A stretch of 36,719 nucleotides of DNA from Comamonadaceae bacterium. GTDB lineage: Bacteria > Pseudomonadota > Gammaproteobacteria > Burkholderiales > Burkholderiaceae_C. The stretch covers positions 1 through 36,719 of the forward strand of contig CANGEG010000003.1 in assembly GCA_947452725.1 (NCBI GenBank), read 5' to 3'. Numbering within the stretch: position 1 is the first letter of the stretch; every line of letters starts with the position of its first letter. This document shows positions 15,299-27,900 of the stretch, piece by piece. The notes under the pieces were generated by a model. That model saw only the letters and a program-made list of their open reading frames with translations. It ran no database searches and was not told the DNA's origin. The position numbers were made by a program, and so were the translations under genes.

Positions 15299-17185
15299 AT
15301 GAGATACCCCTGGAGCCTGTCCTCACATTTTTTACTCAGCGCGGGCCTGAGCATCGGCCTGAGCATTGGCCTGAGCGCCTGCGTCAGCAAGCCGTCTGAA
15401 TCTGCATCTGCATCTGCTCAGCGCATTACTCAGGCCCTCTCACACAACTCTACCCAAGTCGAACAACCTGAAGCCGCCACTGGTCTGAGCGAGAAACCCG
15501 GCTGGGCTTATTCGCACCAAGCCGTGGCTGCTGCGAATCCCTTGGCCGCGGCAGCGGGATTGCAGATACTGCAGGCCGGCGGGTCGGCGCTGGATGCGGC
15601 AATTGCAGTGCAACTGGTGCTGGGGCTGGTTGAGCCTCAGTCCAGCGGCATTGGTGGCGGGGCTTTATTGCTATATTTTGATGGGCACAGAGTGTCGGCT
15701 TACGACGGGCGCGAAACCGCCCCGGCCGGCGCAGGACCAGATTTGTTTCTAGCTGTCAAAGGCAGCCCCTTGCCCTTGGAAGACGCCGTGCTCAGTGGCC
15801 GATCCGTGGGAGTGCCGGGGGCTGTGCGCATGCTCGAAGCCGCGCACCGGCTGAATGGGACTTTGCCCTGGGCGCGATTGTTTGAGCCTGCCGTGCAAAT
15901 GGCTGAGCAAGGTTTTGCCGTCAGCCCGCGCCTACACGCGTTGTTGCAGGCCGACCAGCACCTGAGAAGAGATCCCGTGGCTTTGCGCTTTTTTTACGGC
16001 GCACAAGGCCAAGCTTGGCCCGTGGGCCACCTTTTGCGCAATCTGGAATACGCCCATGTGCTGCGCCTCATCGCCGCGCAAGGCAGCCGCGCCCTGTACG
16101 AAGGAGCGGTGGCGCAGGCCATTGTGCAGCGCACGCAAGCGCCGCCATTGGCGGGCAGCTTGAACCTGCATGACTTAAGCGGATACCAGGCCCGCGAGCG
16201 AAACGCCCTGTGCTTTGAGCACAGCGCCCGCATTAACAATCAGACACGCTCTTACCGCATCTGCGGATTTCCGCCGCCTTCATCGGGCACGATTGCGATT
16301 GGGCACATTTTGAAGTTGATGGCCAACACCACTGCGCAAGGCCCAGAGTTCATTGGCGGTTTACCCTCACCCGACTTTGTGCATCGCTACAGCGAGGCTT
16401 CGCGCCTGGCCTTTGCAGACCGGGCGCAGTATGTGGCCGACCCAGACTTTGTTTCACCGCCTGCTGGCAGGTGGGGTAGCTTGCTGGACAGCGGTTACCT
16501 GCAAGAACGCAGTCAACTCATCAGCGCGCAGGCTATGACGGAGGCTCCGGCCGGCCAGCCCCTGGGCGCCGTCACCCGCTGGAGCCCCATGCCCAATCAA
16601 GCCGAATTTGGCACCAGCCATATCAGCGTGGTCGATGCGCAGGGGCGCGCCGTGGCCATGACAACCACCATTGAGGCGGGGTTTGGCTCGCGACGTATGG
16701 TCTCAACCGATCACGCGCGGGCGGGTGGTTTCTTGCTGAATAACCAGCTCACCGACTTCAGCTTCATCCCAGCCGATGCACAAGGAAGACCCGTGGCCAA
16801 TCGGGTCGAGCCCGGCAAGCGTCCGCGCTCGTCCATGTCGCCCACGCTGGTGTTTGATAGCTTGACAGGCGAACTGTTGCTGAGCGGCGGCAGCCCGGGG
16901 GGGGCGGTCATCATTCCTTACACCACCAAACTGCTGTACGGCACCTTGAATTGGGGCTTGAATGTGCAACAGGCCATTAACCTGCCCAACTTCGGCGCGC
17001 TCTATGGGCCCGTGTTGTTGGAGCGCCAACGCTTTCCTCAAAGCACCGTGCAGGCTCTAAAGGTGCGCGGCCACGAGGTCATTGAAACTGACATGACCAG
17101 CGGCTTGCAAGCGATTGAGAAAACACGATCGGGTTGGTTTGGGGGGGCCGACCCTCGCCGTGAAGGGCAGGTGCTGGGGGATTAA
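15299..17185 (+). CDS. ggt: Gamma-glutamyltransferase (lipoprotein signal)
   Basis: 'GGSALDAAIAVQLVLGLVEPQSSGIGGG', catalytic-Thr region 'GTSHISVVDAQGRAVAMTTTIEAGFGSR', 'LLSGGSPGGAVII'. Start MRYPWSLSSHFLLS...LSAC (lipobox) preferred over the track start at 14954. Confidence 0.93.
   Translation: MRYPWSLSSHFLLSAGLSIGLSIGLSACVSKPSESASASAQRITQALSHNSTQVEQPEAATGLSEKPGWAYSHQAVAAANPLAAAAGLQILQAGGSALDAAIAVQLVLGLVEPQSSGIGGGALLLYFDGHRVSAYDGRETAPAGAGPDLFLAVKGSPLPLEDAVLSGRSVGVPGAVRMLEAAHRLNGTLPWARLFEPAVQMAEQGFAVSPRLHALLQADQHLRRDPVALRFFYGAQGQAWPVGHLLRNLEYAHVLRLIAAQGSRALYEGAVAQAIVQRTQAPPLAGSLNLHDLSGYQARERNALCFEHSARINNQTRSYRICGFPPPSSGTIAIGHILKLMANTTAQGPEFIGGLPSPDFVHRYSEASRLAFADRAQYVADPDFVSPPAGRWGSLLDSGYLQERSQLISAQAMTEAPAGQPLGAVTRWSPMPNQAEFGTSHISVVDAQGRAVAMTTTIEAGFGSRRMVSTDHARAGGFLLNNQLTDFSFIPADAQGRPVANRVEPGKRPRSSMSPTLVFDSLTGELLLSGGSPGGAVIIPYTTKLLYGTLNWGLNVQQAINLPNFGALYGPVLLERQRFPQSTVQALKVRGHEVIETDMTSGLQAIEKTRSGWFGGADPRREGQVLGD
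15344..15379 (+). repeat. 3 x 12-bp tandem repeat in ggt signal peptide
   Basis: GGCCTGAGCATC / GGCCTGAGCATT / GGCCTGAGCGCC encoding (GLSI)2GLSA. Confidence 0.9.
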
Positions 17186-18681
17186 GCCTGTCGGTCGCGG
17201 TGGGAAATTTCCACGACCACCGCCCGGTTGGCCAACTCACTGATCCAGCGCTCTGCTTGCGCGCGGTTGCTGGCATCCAAATTCGCATCCCATTCGTCGA
17301 GCAAATACACGGCACAATGGGTGCGCTGCACGATTTCTTGAAGTGACTGCAATTGACGCTCACCCGAGGAAAAACCTGGCGCCGAGCTGGGCTCTGGGCA
17401 TTCGCCTTGCAGGCCTGCTTCAGCCTGGACTTCATCGGCTTGCGCCTCAATACCCCGCCTAGAAAATTCAAACACTAACCGATCACTGGTTGGCCAGTAA
17501 AAGGCCCTTGAGCCCAAGACCTGCTTGAGCGCTACCAACAGGGTCGATTTGCCGGCGCCGTTGGGTCCGCGCACTGTCACTCGTGCTCTGTGCCAAACGG
17601 TCAATTGGGCAGCCAAATCGGGGGCTGACTGAAAAGTCAAAGCCTGTTCATCTTTGCGTACATCCAAGAGCGCAGGCACGATGCGGGACTGAAAATCCAC
17701 ATCCGAAATTGGCCGCATGGCGCTACAGGCCCCGCCCATGCGGGTCCAGATGGCGAGCAAATCGTTCCAACCTGCAGCCAAGCTGTGCACGTCGGAGGAC
17801 AACTCGATTTGCCTGGGAAGCGTCGCGGCCAAGGCGATCCATAAAGCCGTGGCTTGGGTTCCCTGCGCCACCATGAAAGCCAAATAGCCAAACACCATAC
17901 TTAAGGCAATCACACCGCCCAAAGCGGCCAAGCCTTCTCGCGCCACAATACCGCGAATCGTGGCTTGCAGGGCCCCGCGCAGGCGCTGCTTAAAACCGTC
18001 GTGCCACAGGCGAAAGTTGTAGCGGTTGCCGCTGAAGACGTTGTCCCAGGCAAAGTAAGTGTGCGCGTGCATACGGTTGGTGCTGCTTTGCTGATTCAAG
18101 TAGGCCTGCGCCACCGGTTTGCGCAACTGCCATTGCAGCAGCATCAACACGGCAAACACAGCGGCGTAAACCCAGGGCAGACCGGCGTCCACCGCCACAC
18201 CCAGCACGGCGGCATTAAACACCAAGCCAAAGAACAGCTTAAGGTCAGCCTCCAGCTCATAGATGAACTCAAAAATCAGGTGAAAACTCTCATTGGTCAA
18301 AAAAGGCTCAACCGCTTCACGTTGAGCCTTGTCGTTCAACAAGGCAGTTTGCGCCCGGTTGTCTCGGGTGAACTGCAGCATGTAACGCCCGAAAGCGCCA
18401 AACCCGGCTTGCTCAGCAAACACCCAACTTACCGCCCCCACGCCGTAAGCGGCCGATTGCGCCAGCGCAATCCAAATAAAGTCGGATACCACAAACGCCG
18501 CGCGCGCCAAATCGTGACCAGCTTGAATGATCAAGGCAGTCGTAGTGGCCGACAAAGCCGCCTCAAAAACCAGCAACGCCAACATGCCACCAAAAGGTAA
18601 ACACAGCAACAAACGAACAAAAGCCATGGGCGTGAGCGGCGCCTCTCGATCTTTTAAAAAGTACTCATTTACCATTTTCAA
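17182..18681 (-). CDS. Fused permease/ATP-binding ABC transporter with unusually short NBD
   Basis: N-terminal multi-TM region, then Walker A 'GPNGAGKST', signature-like 'FSSGERQLQSL', Walker B 'AVYLLDEWDANLD', H-loop 'ISHRD'; protein ends 4 residues after ISHRD/RQA region. Confidence 0.85.
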   Translation of the reverse strand: MKMVNEYFLKDREAPLTPMAFVRLLLCLPFGGMLALLVFEAALSATTTALIIQAGHDLARAAFVVSDFIWIALAQSAAYGVGAVSWVFAEQAGFGAFGRYMLQFTRDNRAQTALLNDKAQREAVEPFLTNESFHLIFEFIYELEADLKLFFGLVFNAAVLGVAVDAGLPWVYAAVFAVLMLLQWQLRKPVAQAYLNQQSSTNRMHAHTYFAWDNVFSGNRYNFRLWHDGFKQRLRGALQATIRGIVAREGLAALGGVIALSMVFGYLAFMVAQGTQATALWIALAATLPRQIELSSDVHSLAAGWNDLLAIWTRMGGACSAMRPISDVDFQSRIVPALLDVRKDEQALTFQSAPDLAAQLTVWHRARVTVRGPNGAGKSTLLVALKQVLGSRAFYWPTSDRLVFEFSRRGIEAQADEVQAEAGLQGECPEPSSAPGFSSGERQLQSLQEIVQRTHCAVYLLDEWDANLDASNRAQAERWISELANRAVVVEISHRDRQA

Positions 18682-18703
18682 GCTTCCAATTATTACAAAT
18701 TAT

Positions 18704-18726
18704 TTAATTTATAGTAAACTTGTCAA
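18704..18726 (-). promoter_or_regulatory. Candidate sigma70 promoter for the ABC gene
   Basis: Minus-strand TTGACA (18721-18726) followed after ~16-17 nt by an AT-rich -10-like element (AATAAT/ATAATT). Confidence 0.5.
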
Positions 18727-18756
18727 CGCCATTAGCTTGCAACACGTTGAGTTGAT

Positions 18757-18798
18757 ACCTGTGCGTTCATTGAAACATGTTTCAATGAACGCACAGGT
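18757..18798. repeat. Perfect 42-bp palindrome
   Basis: ACCTGTGCGTTCATTGAAACATGTTTCAATGAACGCACAGGT is identical to its reverse complement; lies between the ABC gene and the micro-ORF. Confidence 0.97.
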
Positions 18799-18860
18799 CT
18801 AAATCGGCTTGGCAGCAGGTCGGTTTAGCACCTTAACCAGAACACTTCAGGAGATTCTTC

Positions 18861-18896
18861 ATGAAAAAGAAAAGCAAAAAACCAACAAAGAAGTAA
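18861..18896 (+). CDS. Candidate micro-ORF, 11 aa MKKKSKKPTKK
   Basis: SD AGGAGA (18849-18854) 6 nt before ATG; ATG AAA AAG AAA AGC AAA AAA CCA ACA AAG AAG TAA; terminator starts 13 nt after the stop. Could instead be a noncoding RNA. Confidence 0.45.
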   Translation: MKKKSKKPTKK

Positions 18897-18909
18897 TTTC
18901 TTTGTAGCG

Positions 18910-18951
18910 AAAACAACCCCGCCAAGCTGCGCTTGAGCGGGGTTGTTTTTT
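18910..18951 (+). terminator. Strong Rho-independent terminator after micro-ORF
   Basis: AAAACAACCCCGC ... GCGGGGTTGTTTTTT, with an inner CAAG/CTTG stem. Confidence 0.93.
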
Positions 18952-19015
18952 GGAGCAGCGCTCTTGCTCAATTCAGCCGCTTGGGCATTGCCCCTCAAAC
19001 ATAAAAACACGCCCA

Positions 19016-21112
19016 TCATCCGGCCTGGCTCAAAGCCCCCAGACCACTGGCGCGTCGGACCTGTTGTGCCATGGCTTCGCCTAGCAAGCCAACTCGGGGC
19101 TCGACCAGCGACAGGTATTCCTTGGCGCGGGTGATACCGGTGTAGACCAACTCGCGGGTCAAAATATCACCGCCTACATCGGGCAAGACCACCACGGTGT
19201 GGGCAAACTCTGAGCCCTGGCTTTTGTGGATGGTCATGGCAAACGCCGTTTCCACATGGGCAAGTCGACTGACGCTGACAGAGCGCAACTGTTCACCATC
19301 GAGAAAATAGGCCCGCAGCGCTCTTCCCCCTTCGTGACCAGGCAGCACCACCCCCACATCGCCATTGAAAACGCCCTGTGCCTTGTCGTTACGAGTCACC
19401 ATGACGGGTCGCCCGACAAACCACTCACCTTCAGGTTGCAAAAGGCCTTGGCTGGCGAGCGCACGCTGCACCTGGTGATTGATGACCCGATCGCCCCAGT
19501 CCCCTTCATGCACAGCGCACAAGATACGAAAACGATCAAACGCTTTGAGCACACGCTTGACCCAGTCAGTGTGGGCCGTTTCGGGCTCAAGCGGCTGCGC
19601 CCTGTGAAGCCTCAAAGGCCAAGGTCCGAGCTGGATCTCACGCAGGTAGTCGGCGTAACTGGCCGGGGCCAGAGGGCGTCCGTGCAAGGCCAGTTGCACC
19701 AGCGCATCGGGGTGCAATGGAGTCGGCACCAAATACACCTTGCCTGGGTGGGCTACAGCACTAGGCAAAACGGTGTGTGCCTGCCGCGTGCCGCGGGCCA
19801 ATAGATCGTAGGCGCCCAAAGGCACCTCTAGCGTGAACAAATCCGAAGGGGCTTCGGCCCGAACCAGGCCCGCGTTCACGGCTTTAGCCAGCGCGCCGAT
19901 GTCCGAGCCAAAGCGGTGACTGTGGCGCAGCATCACGGTTTGCTGTTCGAGCGCGCTGGTGAAAGTTGTCGATGCGAGCAAATGTTGCCCGCAAGTAGCC
20001 ATCACATAAGCGCAGGTGGCAGGGCTGTAACGGGCCTGTTGGGCGTGGGCGCAAAGGTCTCCCAGCACCGAGCCTGCTTCCACCGATGCGAGTTGATCTT
20101 TGTCGCCCAGCAAGATCAGTTTGGCGTGAGGGGGCAAGGCTTGCAGCAAAGCGGCCATCATTTCCAGGTGCACCATCGAGGTCTCATCAACGATCAACAC
20201 GTCCAGGTCCAACTGATGCTGTGCATTGTGGTTGAACTGTCGACTGCCCACGCGCATACCTAGCAGCGCATGCACAGTGCTGGCCTGGCCGATGCGCTCG
20301 GTCAGCGCCTGCAAGTCCACCGCTGCCCCCAGGCTGCTTTGCAGGCTGACCAGCGACTGGTCAATGGACTGGCGCAAACGCGCCGCTGCCTTGCCGGTGG
20401 GCGCAGCCAGTGCCACGCGCAGCTGCGCCGGGTTCTGGCTGGTGGCCAGCAAGAGTGCCAGCAAACGGGCGGCGGTGTAGGTTTTACCAGTACCGGGGCC
20501 ACCGGTGATGACAGTCAGCCCACTGCGCAGAGCCAGCGCGCAGGCGATCTTTTGCCACTGGGGCTCATCGCCCGATGAAGTGCCCGCCTCGCTGCCAGAT
20601 GGTGCCGCAAACATCCGGTCCAGCCAGTCTTTGGCGGCCTCCGTGTCCACCCTTTGGTGCGCTGCGACGCGCTGCCCCACCGCGTGCGCCACTTGTTGCT
20701 CATAGACCCAATAGCGGCGCAGGTAAAGCAACGGGGCCTTGGCCGTGCCGTCCAGCACCAGCGGCTGGCCTGTATCGGGGTGACCTGGCGAGACGCAGCG
20801 CACCACCGGGCTGCGCTTGAGTGCATTCACCCAATTGTGCGGCGCAGTAGGCAAGCTGGCCCACAGGCTGTTCAGCTCACTCTGCGCTTTTTCCGGCCAG
20901 CCCAACACCGCTTGGGGGTTTTGCACCAGCTCAATCAACGGCAAGCACACATGACCTCGCCCCTCCATATGCGCCAGCAAAGCGCTGGCCACCAGAGTGG
21001 CGGGCTCGGCTTGGGGGTCATGGTCCAAAACAAAGCCGGCCAGGGCACTGTCTAGGCGGCGTAACCAGCCTTGCTCAGACCACTGACGAAGGGTTTCAAG
21101 GGTGGAATTCAT
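19016..21112 (-). CDS. recD: Exodeoxyribonuclease V subunit alpha (RecD)
   Basis: 'VITGGPGTGKTYTAARLLALLL', 'LDVLIVDETSMVHLEMMAALLQAL', 'FAMTIHKSQGSEFAHTVVVLP', 'LVYTGITRAKEYLSLV' helicase motifs. Confidence 0.97.
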   Translation of the reverse strand: MNSTLETLRQWSEQGWLRRLDSALAGFVLDHDPQAEPATLVASALLAHMEGRGHVCLPLIELVQNPQAVLGWPEKAQSELNSLWASLPTAPHNWVNALKRSPVVRCVSPGHPDTGQPLVLDGTAKAPLLYLRRYWVYEQQVAHAVGQRVAAHQRVDTEAAKDWLDRMFAAPSGSEAGTSSGDEPQWQKIACALALRSGLTVITGGPGTGKTYTAARLLALLLATSQNPAQLRVALAAPTGKAAARLRQSIDQSLVSLQSSLGAAVDLQALTERIGQASTVHALLGMRVGSRQFNHNAQHQLDLDVLIVDETSMVHLEMMAALLQALPPHAKLILLGDKDQLASVEAGSVLGDLCAHAQQARYSPATCAYVMATCGQHLLASTTFTSALEQQTVMLRHSHRFGSDIGALAKAVNAGLVRAEAPSDLFTLEVPLGAYDLLARGTRQAHTVLPSAVAHPGKVYLVPTPLHPDALVQLALHGRPLAPASYADYLREIQLGPWPLRLHRAQPLEPETAHTDWVKRVLKAFDRFRILCAVHEGDWGDRVINHQVQRALASQGLLQPEGEWFVGRPVMVTRNDKAQGVFNGDVGVVLPGHEGGRALRAYFLDGEQLRSVSVSRLAHVETAFAMTIHKSQGSEFAHTVVVLPDVGGDILTRELVYTGITRAKEYLSLVEPRVGLLGEAMAQQVRRASGLGALSQAG

Positions 21113-24913: not shown

Positions 24914-27900
24914 ATGAAACCGCTTTCACGCATTGGGCAGACCAGGCCAGCAAGGGACCATAAACCAGGCGGGCCAGAGCGGTCACATCCATGCCGTTTG
25001 GAGCCTTGGCGCTGCAAAGGGCTTCAAAGTCGGGAAAGACCCGGGCCAGGCACATCTCGCGCACTTCGGCCAGTTGTTCGCTAATCGCACCACCACCACC
25101 ACCACCACCACCACCACCTTCGTAGGCGAGTTCGGCCTTGGCATCGGCTTGGCTGTCCTCTTCGCTTTGAGCACCAGCGGCCAGCGCCAATGCAGTCTTG
25201 AGCGGTAAAGGTAAAGGGGCATTTTGGCCTTGCAGCCAAACTTCGCACAAAATGTTCAGGCCTTGCAAGGCTTGCTCGGGCGGCATGGGTTGAATATGCA
25301 GTTCGCCATCCTGCCCGACTACACGTCCCTGCAACACCTGCCCAACCGATGCGGCCAGCATGGATTGCAACCAAGCGCGCAAGAGTTTGTCAGGGCGGGC
25401 AACATAGACTTTACCGTTTTTGGCGGTGATTTTACTGGCGTCCAATATCACCCACGCGCGGTCACCGTCGCTATTTTGGCAAATACCGTCGAGCCAGTCG
25501 CGCAGCACCAACGTGTGATCTTGGCACCGGTGCTCATAGCTGACCGCAACGCGCTCGCTGGTCAGCGGAAACGCATGGCCCAGCCCAGCCCAGGCCTGCG
25601 CCATGGCGCTCAGCGTGCCTTGTAACTCGGCTTTTTTAAGTTGGCCCAGACCCTGCATTGGCAAACTGCCCGCACGATCCAAGGCCTCCAGCCGGGCCGT
25701 AATGCCTGCCTCCAGGCCTTGACATTGGGTTGGCGCGGGCCAGTGTTGGATCTGTGACTGTATGAGTTGGTAGTTGGCCAGCCCGTCAAAGCCAAAAGCT
25801 TCTGTGTCACCAGGCTCCTCTTCAGGGCTCCAAAAGCTCACACCAAAACGTTCCTTGAAAAAGGCTTTGACCGGGTTGCGGAAAAAACGCACCAGCCTAT
25901 CTTGGTCCAAGCGTTCCTGGCCCAAACGCTCGGGCTTAACCAGGCAAAGGGTGGTGGGCACCAAGGTGCTGGAATTGTCAGTACGGCAACCCTGCTCGGC
26001 CATGTTTGTACTCTCGTACAGGCTGCGCCACTCGCGGGCATAAGTTTGCAGCGATGAGCCCGATTCAAAATAGCGACGACTGAAAGGCTGCAAAGGATGC
26101 GAGGTTGTGCGGTCTATGACGGCTTGTTCGCCCCAGGCTGAGGCGATGTAATCGCGCAGCTGCGAGACCAGCACCGAGGGTGGCTGCGCGCTGTTATCGC
26201 GCACGCTGTGGCCAGTCCAGCTGACATACAGCACGCGGCGGGCAGACAGCAGCGCTTCTAGCATGAGTTGTCGGTCATCGTGCTGGCGCGATCGGTCGCC
26301 AGGGCGAAACATTCCGCGCTGGCCCATCAGGTCAAAGTCGCTGCGCTGAGTGCGACGCGGATAGTCGCCGTCATTCATACCCAGCAGGCAGACTACCTCA
26401 AACGGAATGGCCCGCATCGGCATCAGCGTGCAAAAAGTCACGCCACCGGCCCGAAAACGCTGCGCCAAGCTAGGCACCTGTAAGGCGTCAAGCCAGCCTT
26501 GGCGCAGAGCCGCCAAACCCACCGCCTGCGCAAAACCGGCTTGCTCACAGGCCCGCAGCCAATAGTCCAAACCATCGCTCAGTGCGCTCAAGGCCAGAGT
26601 GTCTATCTCGTCCACGGCTTTAAACAAAACTCCCAGCAACCACTGCGCGTGTTCGCGCCAAGCCCCAGGCGTGGCCTCGCTTTGGGTGCGCTGCCACCAG
26701 TCGGCCAGAGTTTGTAGCAGGTGCGCCAGGCTGCCAGCCAGTTCGGCATCCAAGCCGCCGACTTCGGCATAGGGCTCAGTACCCTGCCAGCCTGTGGCGC
26801 CGGACAGCTCGGCCATTGAGCCCGAGGCGTAACCTAGCAGCATGCGCTGCAAACCAAACCAGGCACTGTTTTGGTCGCCGCAAGCGGCCAGGTCCAACTG
26901 GGCCCGCTGCTGTTCGTGCAAGCCCCAGCGAATGCCAGAGCCGGTCATCCATTGCATGAGCAGGGGCAATTTTTCAGCGTCAATGCCAAAGCGCTGGGCC
27001 AAGGCGGGCACTTCTAATAAATCCACCAACTCGCTCAAGCCGCAGCGGTGCAACGGCAAACCGAGTAACCACTCCACGGCCAAAATAATCGGGCTGCTGG
27101 ACTTAGCGCTCAGGTCAGCAATGTCAAACGGAATGAACCGCTTGTCGTGACGCGAGTATTGACCAAACACAGCGCGGATAGCTGGGGCCATGCTCTGCAC
27201 ATCGGGCACCATGACAACGACGTCTCGGGGATTGAGTGGCAGTTTTTGATCCGTGGTTATGGACGATGGCGCCAATAGGGCCAGCAACTGGTCGTGCAGC
27301 ACTTCAAGCTCACGCACGGGGCTGTGCGCCAGGTGGAACACCACTGAGCGGTCTTCGGCGGCCAAAGGTGCATCGTCATGCCGCACGCTCAGCGGCTCCA
27401 AGTCGCGGATGCGATGCTGCATACGGGTGAGCATGGGTGTGTGAGCAGTTTCAGGTGCCTCGCCAAAAAGGTCAATCTTGAGCAAGGGAAAAGCCTGCGC
27501 CGTGGCCACGGCATCGTCAAAAGCATCGAGCTGGCGTACAAAGTCCCTCCCCTGCCGACCCCAGGCAGCAAGCAGCGGGTGGGCAAGCATGTGCATGTCT
27601 TCCAACGCTGGCGGTGTGTTCAGGGCCTCTCGCATTGGATGGCGGCGGCGCGCAATCTTGAATAGTTCACGCCCTTCCATGATGTCGCCCCAGTAAAAAC
27701 GGCAAGGGTTCGGCACCGCCACAATCACCTGGCTGTGAGGGGCCAGCGCGGCCATCATCTCTAGCATGGCCCCGGGAATGTGGCTCATACCAAATACCAC
27801 GACGCGCCGCGGCAGCGGTCCTGCAAAATTTTCGCCACTGTGTAAGCGCGCGACCACCTGGCGATGCAGGTCGGGTCGAGTGACGCCGCGCTGTGCGGGC

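Follow-up and report, generated by a model that had tools for sequence, protein, structure and literature searches.

Is an open reading frame of eleven codons, set between a ribosome-binding site and a terminator, a gene, and if so, what might its product do? The question is raised by a locus within 36,719 nucleotides of DNA from a Comamonadaceae bacterium; this whole stretch is here called the window. An initial annotation had offered three options for the ORF, a cationic micropeptide, a leader or attenuator peptide, and a small regulatory RNA (sRNA). They can be judged best from the surroundings of the ORF, from its relatives and from the way in which its codons vary.

The micro-ORF unit and its surroundings

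The relevant features of the window are:

18861-18896, plus strand: micro-ORF MKKKSKKPTKK (from the sequence, homologous Lys-rich micro-ORFs beside ABC homologues and codon constraint in divergent relatives)
18894-18896, plus strand: stop codon TAA of the micro-ORF (from the sequence)
18849-18854, plus strand: Shine-Dalgarno (SD) sequence AGGAGA, with a 6-nt spacer to the ATG at 18861 (from the sequence; SD-like motifs precede related ORFs)
18909-18950, plus strand: intrinsic terminator of the micro-ORF unit (from folding and the hairpins after related micro-ORFs)
18885-18905, plus strand: small hairpin ACAAAGAA-GTAAT-TTCTTTGT spanning the stop codon (from folding)
18795-18833, plus strand: predicted 5' leader hairpin (from folding of the window sequence alone)
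17182-18675, minus strand: ABC exporter gene, 497 aa from its ATG, the divergent partner of the micro-ORF (from the sequence, an AlphaFold model and a fold match to McjD)
18721-18727: TGTCAAC motif, on the minus strand TTGACA, the likely -35 element of the ABC gene (at the aligned position in most divergent relatives)
17186-19015: insert of two genes that separates ggt from recD, made up of the ABC gene and the micro-ORF unit (absent from both relatives checked)
19016-21112: recD, convergent with the micro-ORF unit (recB- and recC-like genes precede it on its strand)

Direct reading bore out the AGGAGA placed 6 nt ahead of the ATG and the 11-residue ORF of the initial annotation; its lysine count, however, has to be lowered from 8 to 7 of the 11 residues. 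Folding confirmed the strong GC stem and T-run that had been announced within 13 nt of the ORF: the GC-rich hairpin starts 12 nt past the stop codon. The second hairpin, with a GTAAT loop overlapping the stop codon, was likewise found. It has no counterpart of the same sequence in relatives, several of which have a hairpin just past the stop. Being roughly symmetrical, the terminator could serve the convergent recD transcript as well. A consensus search of the window disclosed no plus-strand promoter for the micro-ORF.

What had escaped the initial annotation is the key context: an ABC exporter gene divergent from the micro-ORF, and the insertion of both genes between ggt and recD. The micro-ORF unit diverges from the ABC gene and converges with recD. 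In the two relatives with the closest RecD (G031 and G022), recD and ggt, which encodes gamma-glutamyltranspeptidase, are convergent and tens of bases apart, with no insert. Because recD thus lies directly against ggt there, and because just one of the 91 genomes from the genus was found to have the ABC gene, ABC gene and micro-ORF are regarded as a single insert of about 1.8 kb in the window genome. The same rarity accounts for the outcome of a DNA search with the micro-ORF unit in 101 related genomes, which yielded generic SD and terminator matches only.

Two further peculiarities of the window may be mentioned. A perfect 42-nt palindrome (ACCTGTGCGTTCATTGAAACATGTTTCAATGAACGCACAGGT, 18757-18798) in the ABC gene/micro-ORF intergenic region could serve as an operator or form a hairpin. 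It occurs at a single place in the genome and has no counterpart in relatives; as a shared regulatory element it was dismissed. A perfect (CAC)10 repeat at 25088-25118 within the recC-like gene encodes a run of about 10 Gly, and changes in its length would stay in frame.

A family of micro-ORFs beside one ABC gene

At 80 loci, a protein scan of the species collection detected ABC homologues, and the sequence ahead of them was inspected. In Comamonadaceae, homologues have a Lys-rich micro-ORF on the opposite strand, 170-263 nt from the ABC start, as in the window, and these ORFs, too, have an SD-like sequence and a terminator. Examples of such divergent peptides are MNNATAKPKKSKKPAKKTPAK, MNNATAKPKKSKKPMKKAPK, MAKKRKSKKPAKKASQ, MNNATSKPKKSKKPMKKAK and MTKKKHSKKPAKKSVAK, among others; at L019, L026 and L059 the micro-ORF has shifted by about 2-3 kb. 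Carriers among Dechloromonas, Propionivibrio, Accumulibacter and Comamonas granuli have the micro-ORF on the same strand as the ABC gene and upstream of it, mostly within 250 nt. Carriers available in culture include Variovorax sp. PCZ-1, Rhodoferax sp. OV413, Dechloromonas hankyongensis XY25 and Comamonas granuli NBRC 101663. The same-strand peptides of this Rhodocyclaceae/Azonexaceae/Comamonas clade comprise MAKKKKKK, MAKKKSKGKKPAPK, MATKKKTKGKKPAPK and MAKKKGKKKK. Folding of the relatives' DNA again predicts terminator hairpins after the micro-ORFs. Altogether, 31 distinct peptides of 8-21 aa were collected, with net charges of +6 to +9 and devoid of D, E, F, W, Y and C. The window ORF is assigned to this family because it is homologous in position, in core sequence (KSKKPxKK) and in arrangement. 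Apart from the ABC gene, no neighbour is common across the clades, and the neighbourhoods are otherwise unrelated.

The association is not universal. A search for polybasic micro-ORFs at alphaproteobacterial ABC homologues gave no consistent candidate, and several beta-proteobacterial homologues have no recognisable micro-ORF nearby, which implies that the transporter can exist without the micropeptide. One ABC homologue lacking a micro-ORF, at L053 (4968-6467), has a Lys-rich N-terminus of its own (MQPTNKKKQNRQEKQKAISRLK). Plasmid records contained no ABC homologue at E <= 1e-40.

The tree of the ABC proteins unites the same-strand loci in a single clade (99/100) and places the divergent ones elsewhere; the alphaproteobacterial and some beta-proteobacterial homologues lacking a micro-ORF group with the same-strand clade. 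A single origin followed by losses and two separate associations both fit this tree. The branch leading to the window ABC protein is long (0.8 changes per column), and most peptides of the clade exceed the window peptide in length. Fast evolution after transfer could be responsible, or the onset of decay; the copy in the window could be degenerate.

How far can the linkage be due to chance? For counting, a micro-ORF was defined by an ATG, an SD-like motif, a length of 8-25 aa and at least 33% Lys. The 400 nt ahead of the ABC starts, 52.6 kb-strands in total, contained 34 such ORFs, and the remaining 1298 kb-strands of these loci contained 7; the densities of 0.65 and 0.0054 per kb-strand differ about 120-fold, though the rule was fixed after the first examples had been seen, and loci found later therefore weigh more. 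Moreover, 4 of the 7 matches elsewhere resemble displaced family members. Among the later-found loci, L150 (MAKKKKKK), L153 (MAKKKKSKGKKPAPKM) and L157 (MAARKRRKSRK) have a micro-ORF, the last one being Arg-rich and found by reading; L148, from another family, has none.

A second check is consistent with these counts. The ABC gene is present in 13 of 301 genomes of the family. The same 301 genomes were scanned with a strict DNA pattern for the core of the peptide. It detected genuine micro-ORFs in four, all of them ABC carriers with the micro-ORF adjoining the ABC gene, and a fifth, unrelated match; the pattern misses the window ORF itself, so that four is a lower bound. By this comparative evidence the micro-ORF is real: it is a member of a family of lysine-rich, highly positive peptides kept beside one ABC exporter gene in many beta-proteobacteria.

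Of course, a polycation could have business of its own, e.g., binding nucleic acids or polyphosphate, and merely travel with the ABC gene. The composition (+6 to +9, no acidic residues) fits binding to polyanions, and many of the same-strand carriers are Accumulibacter, Propionivibrio or Dechloromonas-like organisms. Yet the linkage persists although orientation, distance and neighbours vary, and among the 301 family genomes genuine micro-ORFs with the strict pattern turned up in ABC carriers only. We consider such independence quite improbable.

Peptide, RNA or leader

The codon test was confined to the divergent clade, where ten relatives can be aligned over 17 codons; in the same-strand clade, the nearest relatives seemed too similar to one another to be informative. 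Among the ten divergent relatives, variable sites number 3, 4 and 13 at codon positions 1, 2 and 3, respectively. Of the minimal codon changes, 67% are synonymous, compared with 24% on average after permutation of the columns, and none of 5000 permutations reached as high a value. The other two frames gave synonymous to non-synonymous ratios of 3:23 and 0:22. Identity amounts to 83% in the ORF and drops to 39% in the 20 bases upstream and 44% in the 60 bases downstream. This is strong evidence, of a comparative kind, that in the divergent clade the micro-ORF is translated and constrained at the level of amino acids. The initial annotation had asked whether the peptide or the RNA fold is conserved: it is the peptide, and no common fold was discernible by eye outside the terminator. 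Nor has the ORF drifted at random, as had been considered there, in the carriers, which lie beyond the genus.

An sRNA, in which the ORF would be incidental or secondary, might at first sight appeal. The presumed RNA (strand 18790-18955) folds with -64 kcal/mol, as compared with -38.3 +/- 3.6 for shuffled sequences (z -7.2), its terminator is tight and the predicted transcript is short. The variation, however, is mainly synonymous and the ORF is conserved above its flanks, a codon pattern that a purely non-coding sRNA leaves unexplained. Judged by eye, relatives share no fold but the terminator, and an Rfam search of the window matched a tRNA only, without any RNA family for the micro-ORF unit. 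This explanation is very improbable, while a dual function of the RNA, as message and as RNA, may apply. The option of a cationic micropeptide, in turn, is favoured by the conserved peptide, the mostly synonymous variation and the retained genomic association.

The remaining option, a leader peptide acting in cis, has a precedent: in Bacillus subtilis the leader peptide BmrB controls the ABC exporter bmrCD (PMC4191407). By analogy, ribosomes on the Lys codons would control read-through of the terminator into the ABC gene. At the window locus, cis attenuation is excluded because that strand encodes nothing downstream, recD being convergent; the same holds for the divergent clade, whose ORFs are read away from the ABC gene. 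For the same-strand clade it is possible. There the order is micro-ORF, terminator, ABC gene; the terminator can lie immediately ahead of the ABC start, and several loci leave little room for a separate ABC promoter. Pairing that could form an antiterminator has a mean z of -0.79 at same-strand loci and +0.16 at divergent ones. At three Propionivibrio-type loci an antiterminator may exist (z about -2 to -2.6), but as a general antiterminator the pairing is weak and patchy. BmrB-bmrCD thus resembles the present loci in having a small ORF and a terminator beside an ABC exporter gene; it differs from them by the ORF that points away in the window, the weak antiterminator pairing in the same-strand clade and the amino-acid-level constraint on the divergent peptides. 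As an explanation of the family, control in cis is improbable.

In the same-strand clade (L062, L052, L058 and relatives), the terminator hairpin AAGCAGRCGNRAGTCTGCTT, which separates the micro-ORF from the ABC gene, is conserved in sequence. Judged from these loci, its conservation is greater than a plain terminator needs. A shared repeat terminator was considered and discarded: four carriers each have a single copy of AAGCAGRCGNRAGTCTGCTT, at this locus only, and 0 of 150 other genomes (G428 family) have one.

The exporter and the possible roles of the peptide

The ABC protein is modelled by AlphaFold with a pLDDT of 86.6, and Foldseek assigns it the fold of type IV ABC exporters. Its motifs are GPNGAGKST (Walker A), SSGE (signature) and LLDEWD (Walker B). 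Sequence libraries recognise the ATPase part alone, and PADLOC matches are likewise limited to it; neither a Pfam transmembrane-domain family nor a specific NCBIfam family was reached. Ahead of the signature motif, at about residues 405-433 of the window protein, there is an acidic loop of low model confidence. Its net charge ranges from -2 to -11 in those proteobacterial homologues that could be read. Loci with and without a micro-ORF do not differ in this charge, and the loop was therefore dropped as a trait that co-occurs with the peptide. Nevertheless, it is conceivable that the polycation binds to the nucleotide-binding domain at this loop.

Probably, the micro-ORF encodes a selected stand-alone micropeptide that works in trans with the linked ABC exporter. 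The gene for a short polycation (8-21 aa, +6 to +9), with an SD sequence and a terminator of its own, is kept beside the ABC gene in beta-proteobacteria despite changes of orientation, distance and neighbours. From its short transcript the peptide would be made in excess over the transporter, and in the window organism, too, it would be transcribed, translated and active in trans. The likeliest single role, favoured with some reserve, is that of a soluble electrostatic regulator or subunit of the exporter, with the acidic loop as the putative docking site.

Next in rank, and rather doubtful, is the peptide as cargo: a very short ribosomal product of an abundant short mRNA would be exported, with an economy like that of microcin C. 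There, the 7-aa ORF mccA is followed by a terminator and then by mccB and the remaining operon, and the system has an export pump (PMC6495379). The micro-ORFs share with mccA the ultra-short, SD-led frame and the terminator directly after it, in the same-strand clade even ahead of the ABC gene as operon gene. But the loci have neither a shared adenylating (MccB-like) nor another shared modifying enzyme nearby, the linked transporter is an ABC exporter, the peptide is Lys-rich and, in the window, the arrangement is divergent. The peptides also lack a leader, a double glycine and Cys, and vary widely in length and sequence. The top PDB fold match of the ABC protein is McjD, an exporter of an antibacterial peptide (E 1.1e-10, TM-score 0.59), which speaks for cargo; McjD, however, is one among many generic type IV exporter matches. 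With McjD and the others the ABC protein has the predicted fold in common, but it is only about 16% identical to McjD and has a short nucleotide-binding domain with the acidic loop. Behind regulator and cargo, the remainder is divided between the independent polycation, a cis leader confined to the same-strand clade, and an RNA function.

Gene callers have a length limit far above 8-21 codons, and whole families of genes as short as this can go unseen. The present one is conserved across several genera and families, is under selection at the peptide level in at least one clade and is tied to an ABC exporter. The micropeptide would offer a handle on the role of that exporter and a test case for the minimum size of a functional bacterial gene product. 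In the open-licence literature, no earlier description of the family was found.

Small protein partners of membrane complexes are, as such, familiar. AcrZ, KdpF and CydX are small hydrophobic membrane proteins of about 30-50 aa. Like them, the micropeptides are very small products encoded with a membrane complex; unlike them, they have just 8-21 residues, are hydrophilic and polycationic, and have no membrane-spanning segment. Small partners of transporters are thus known, while a hydrophilic polycation of this size, conserved in composition and not in sequence, is new and possibly represents a new class. Tentatively, this class may be described as ultra-short hydrophilic, composition-conserved polycations, down to MAKKKKKK, which would be dedicated trans partners of one ABC family, the pair moving from genome to genome as a two-gene unit.
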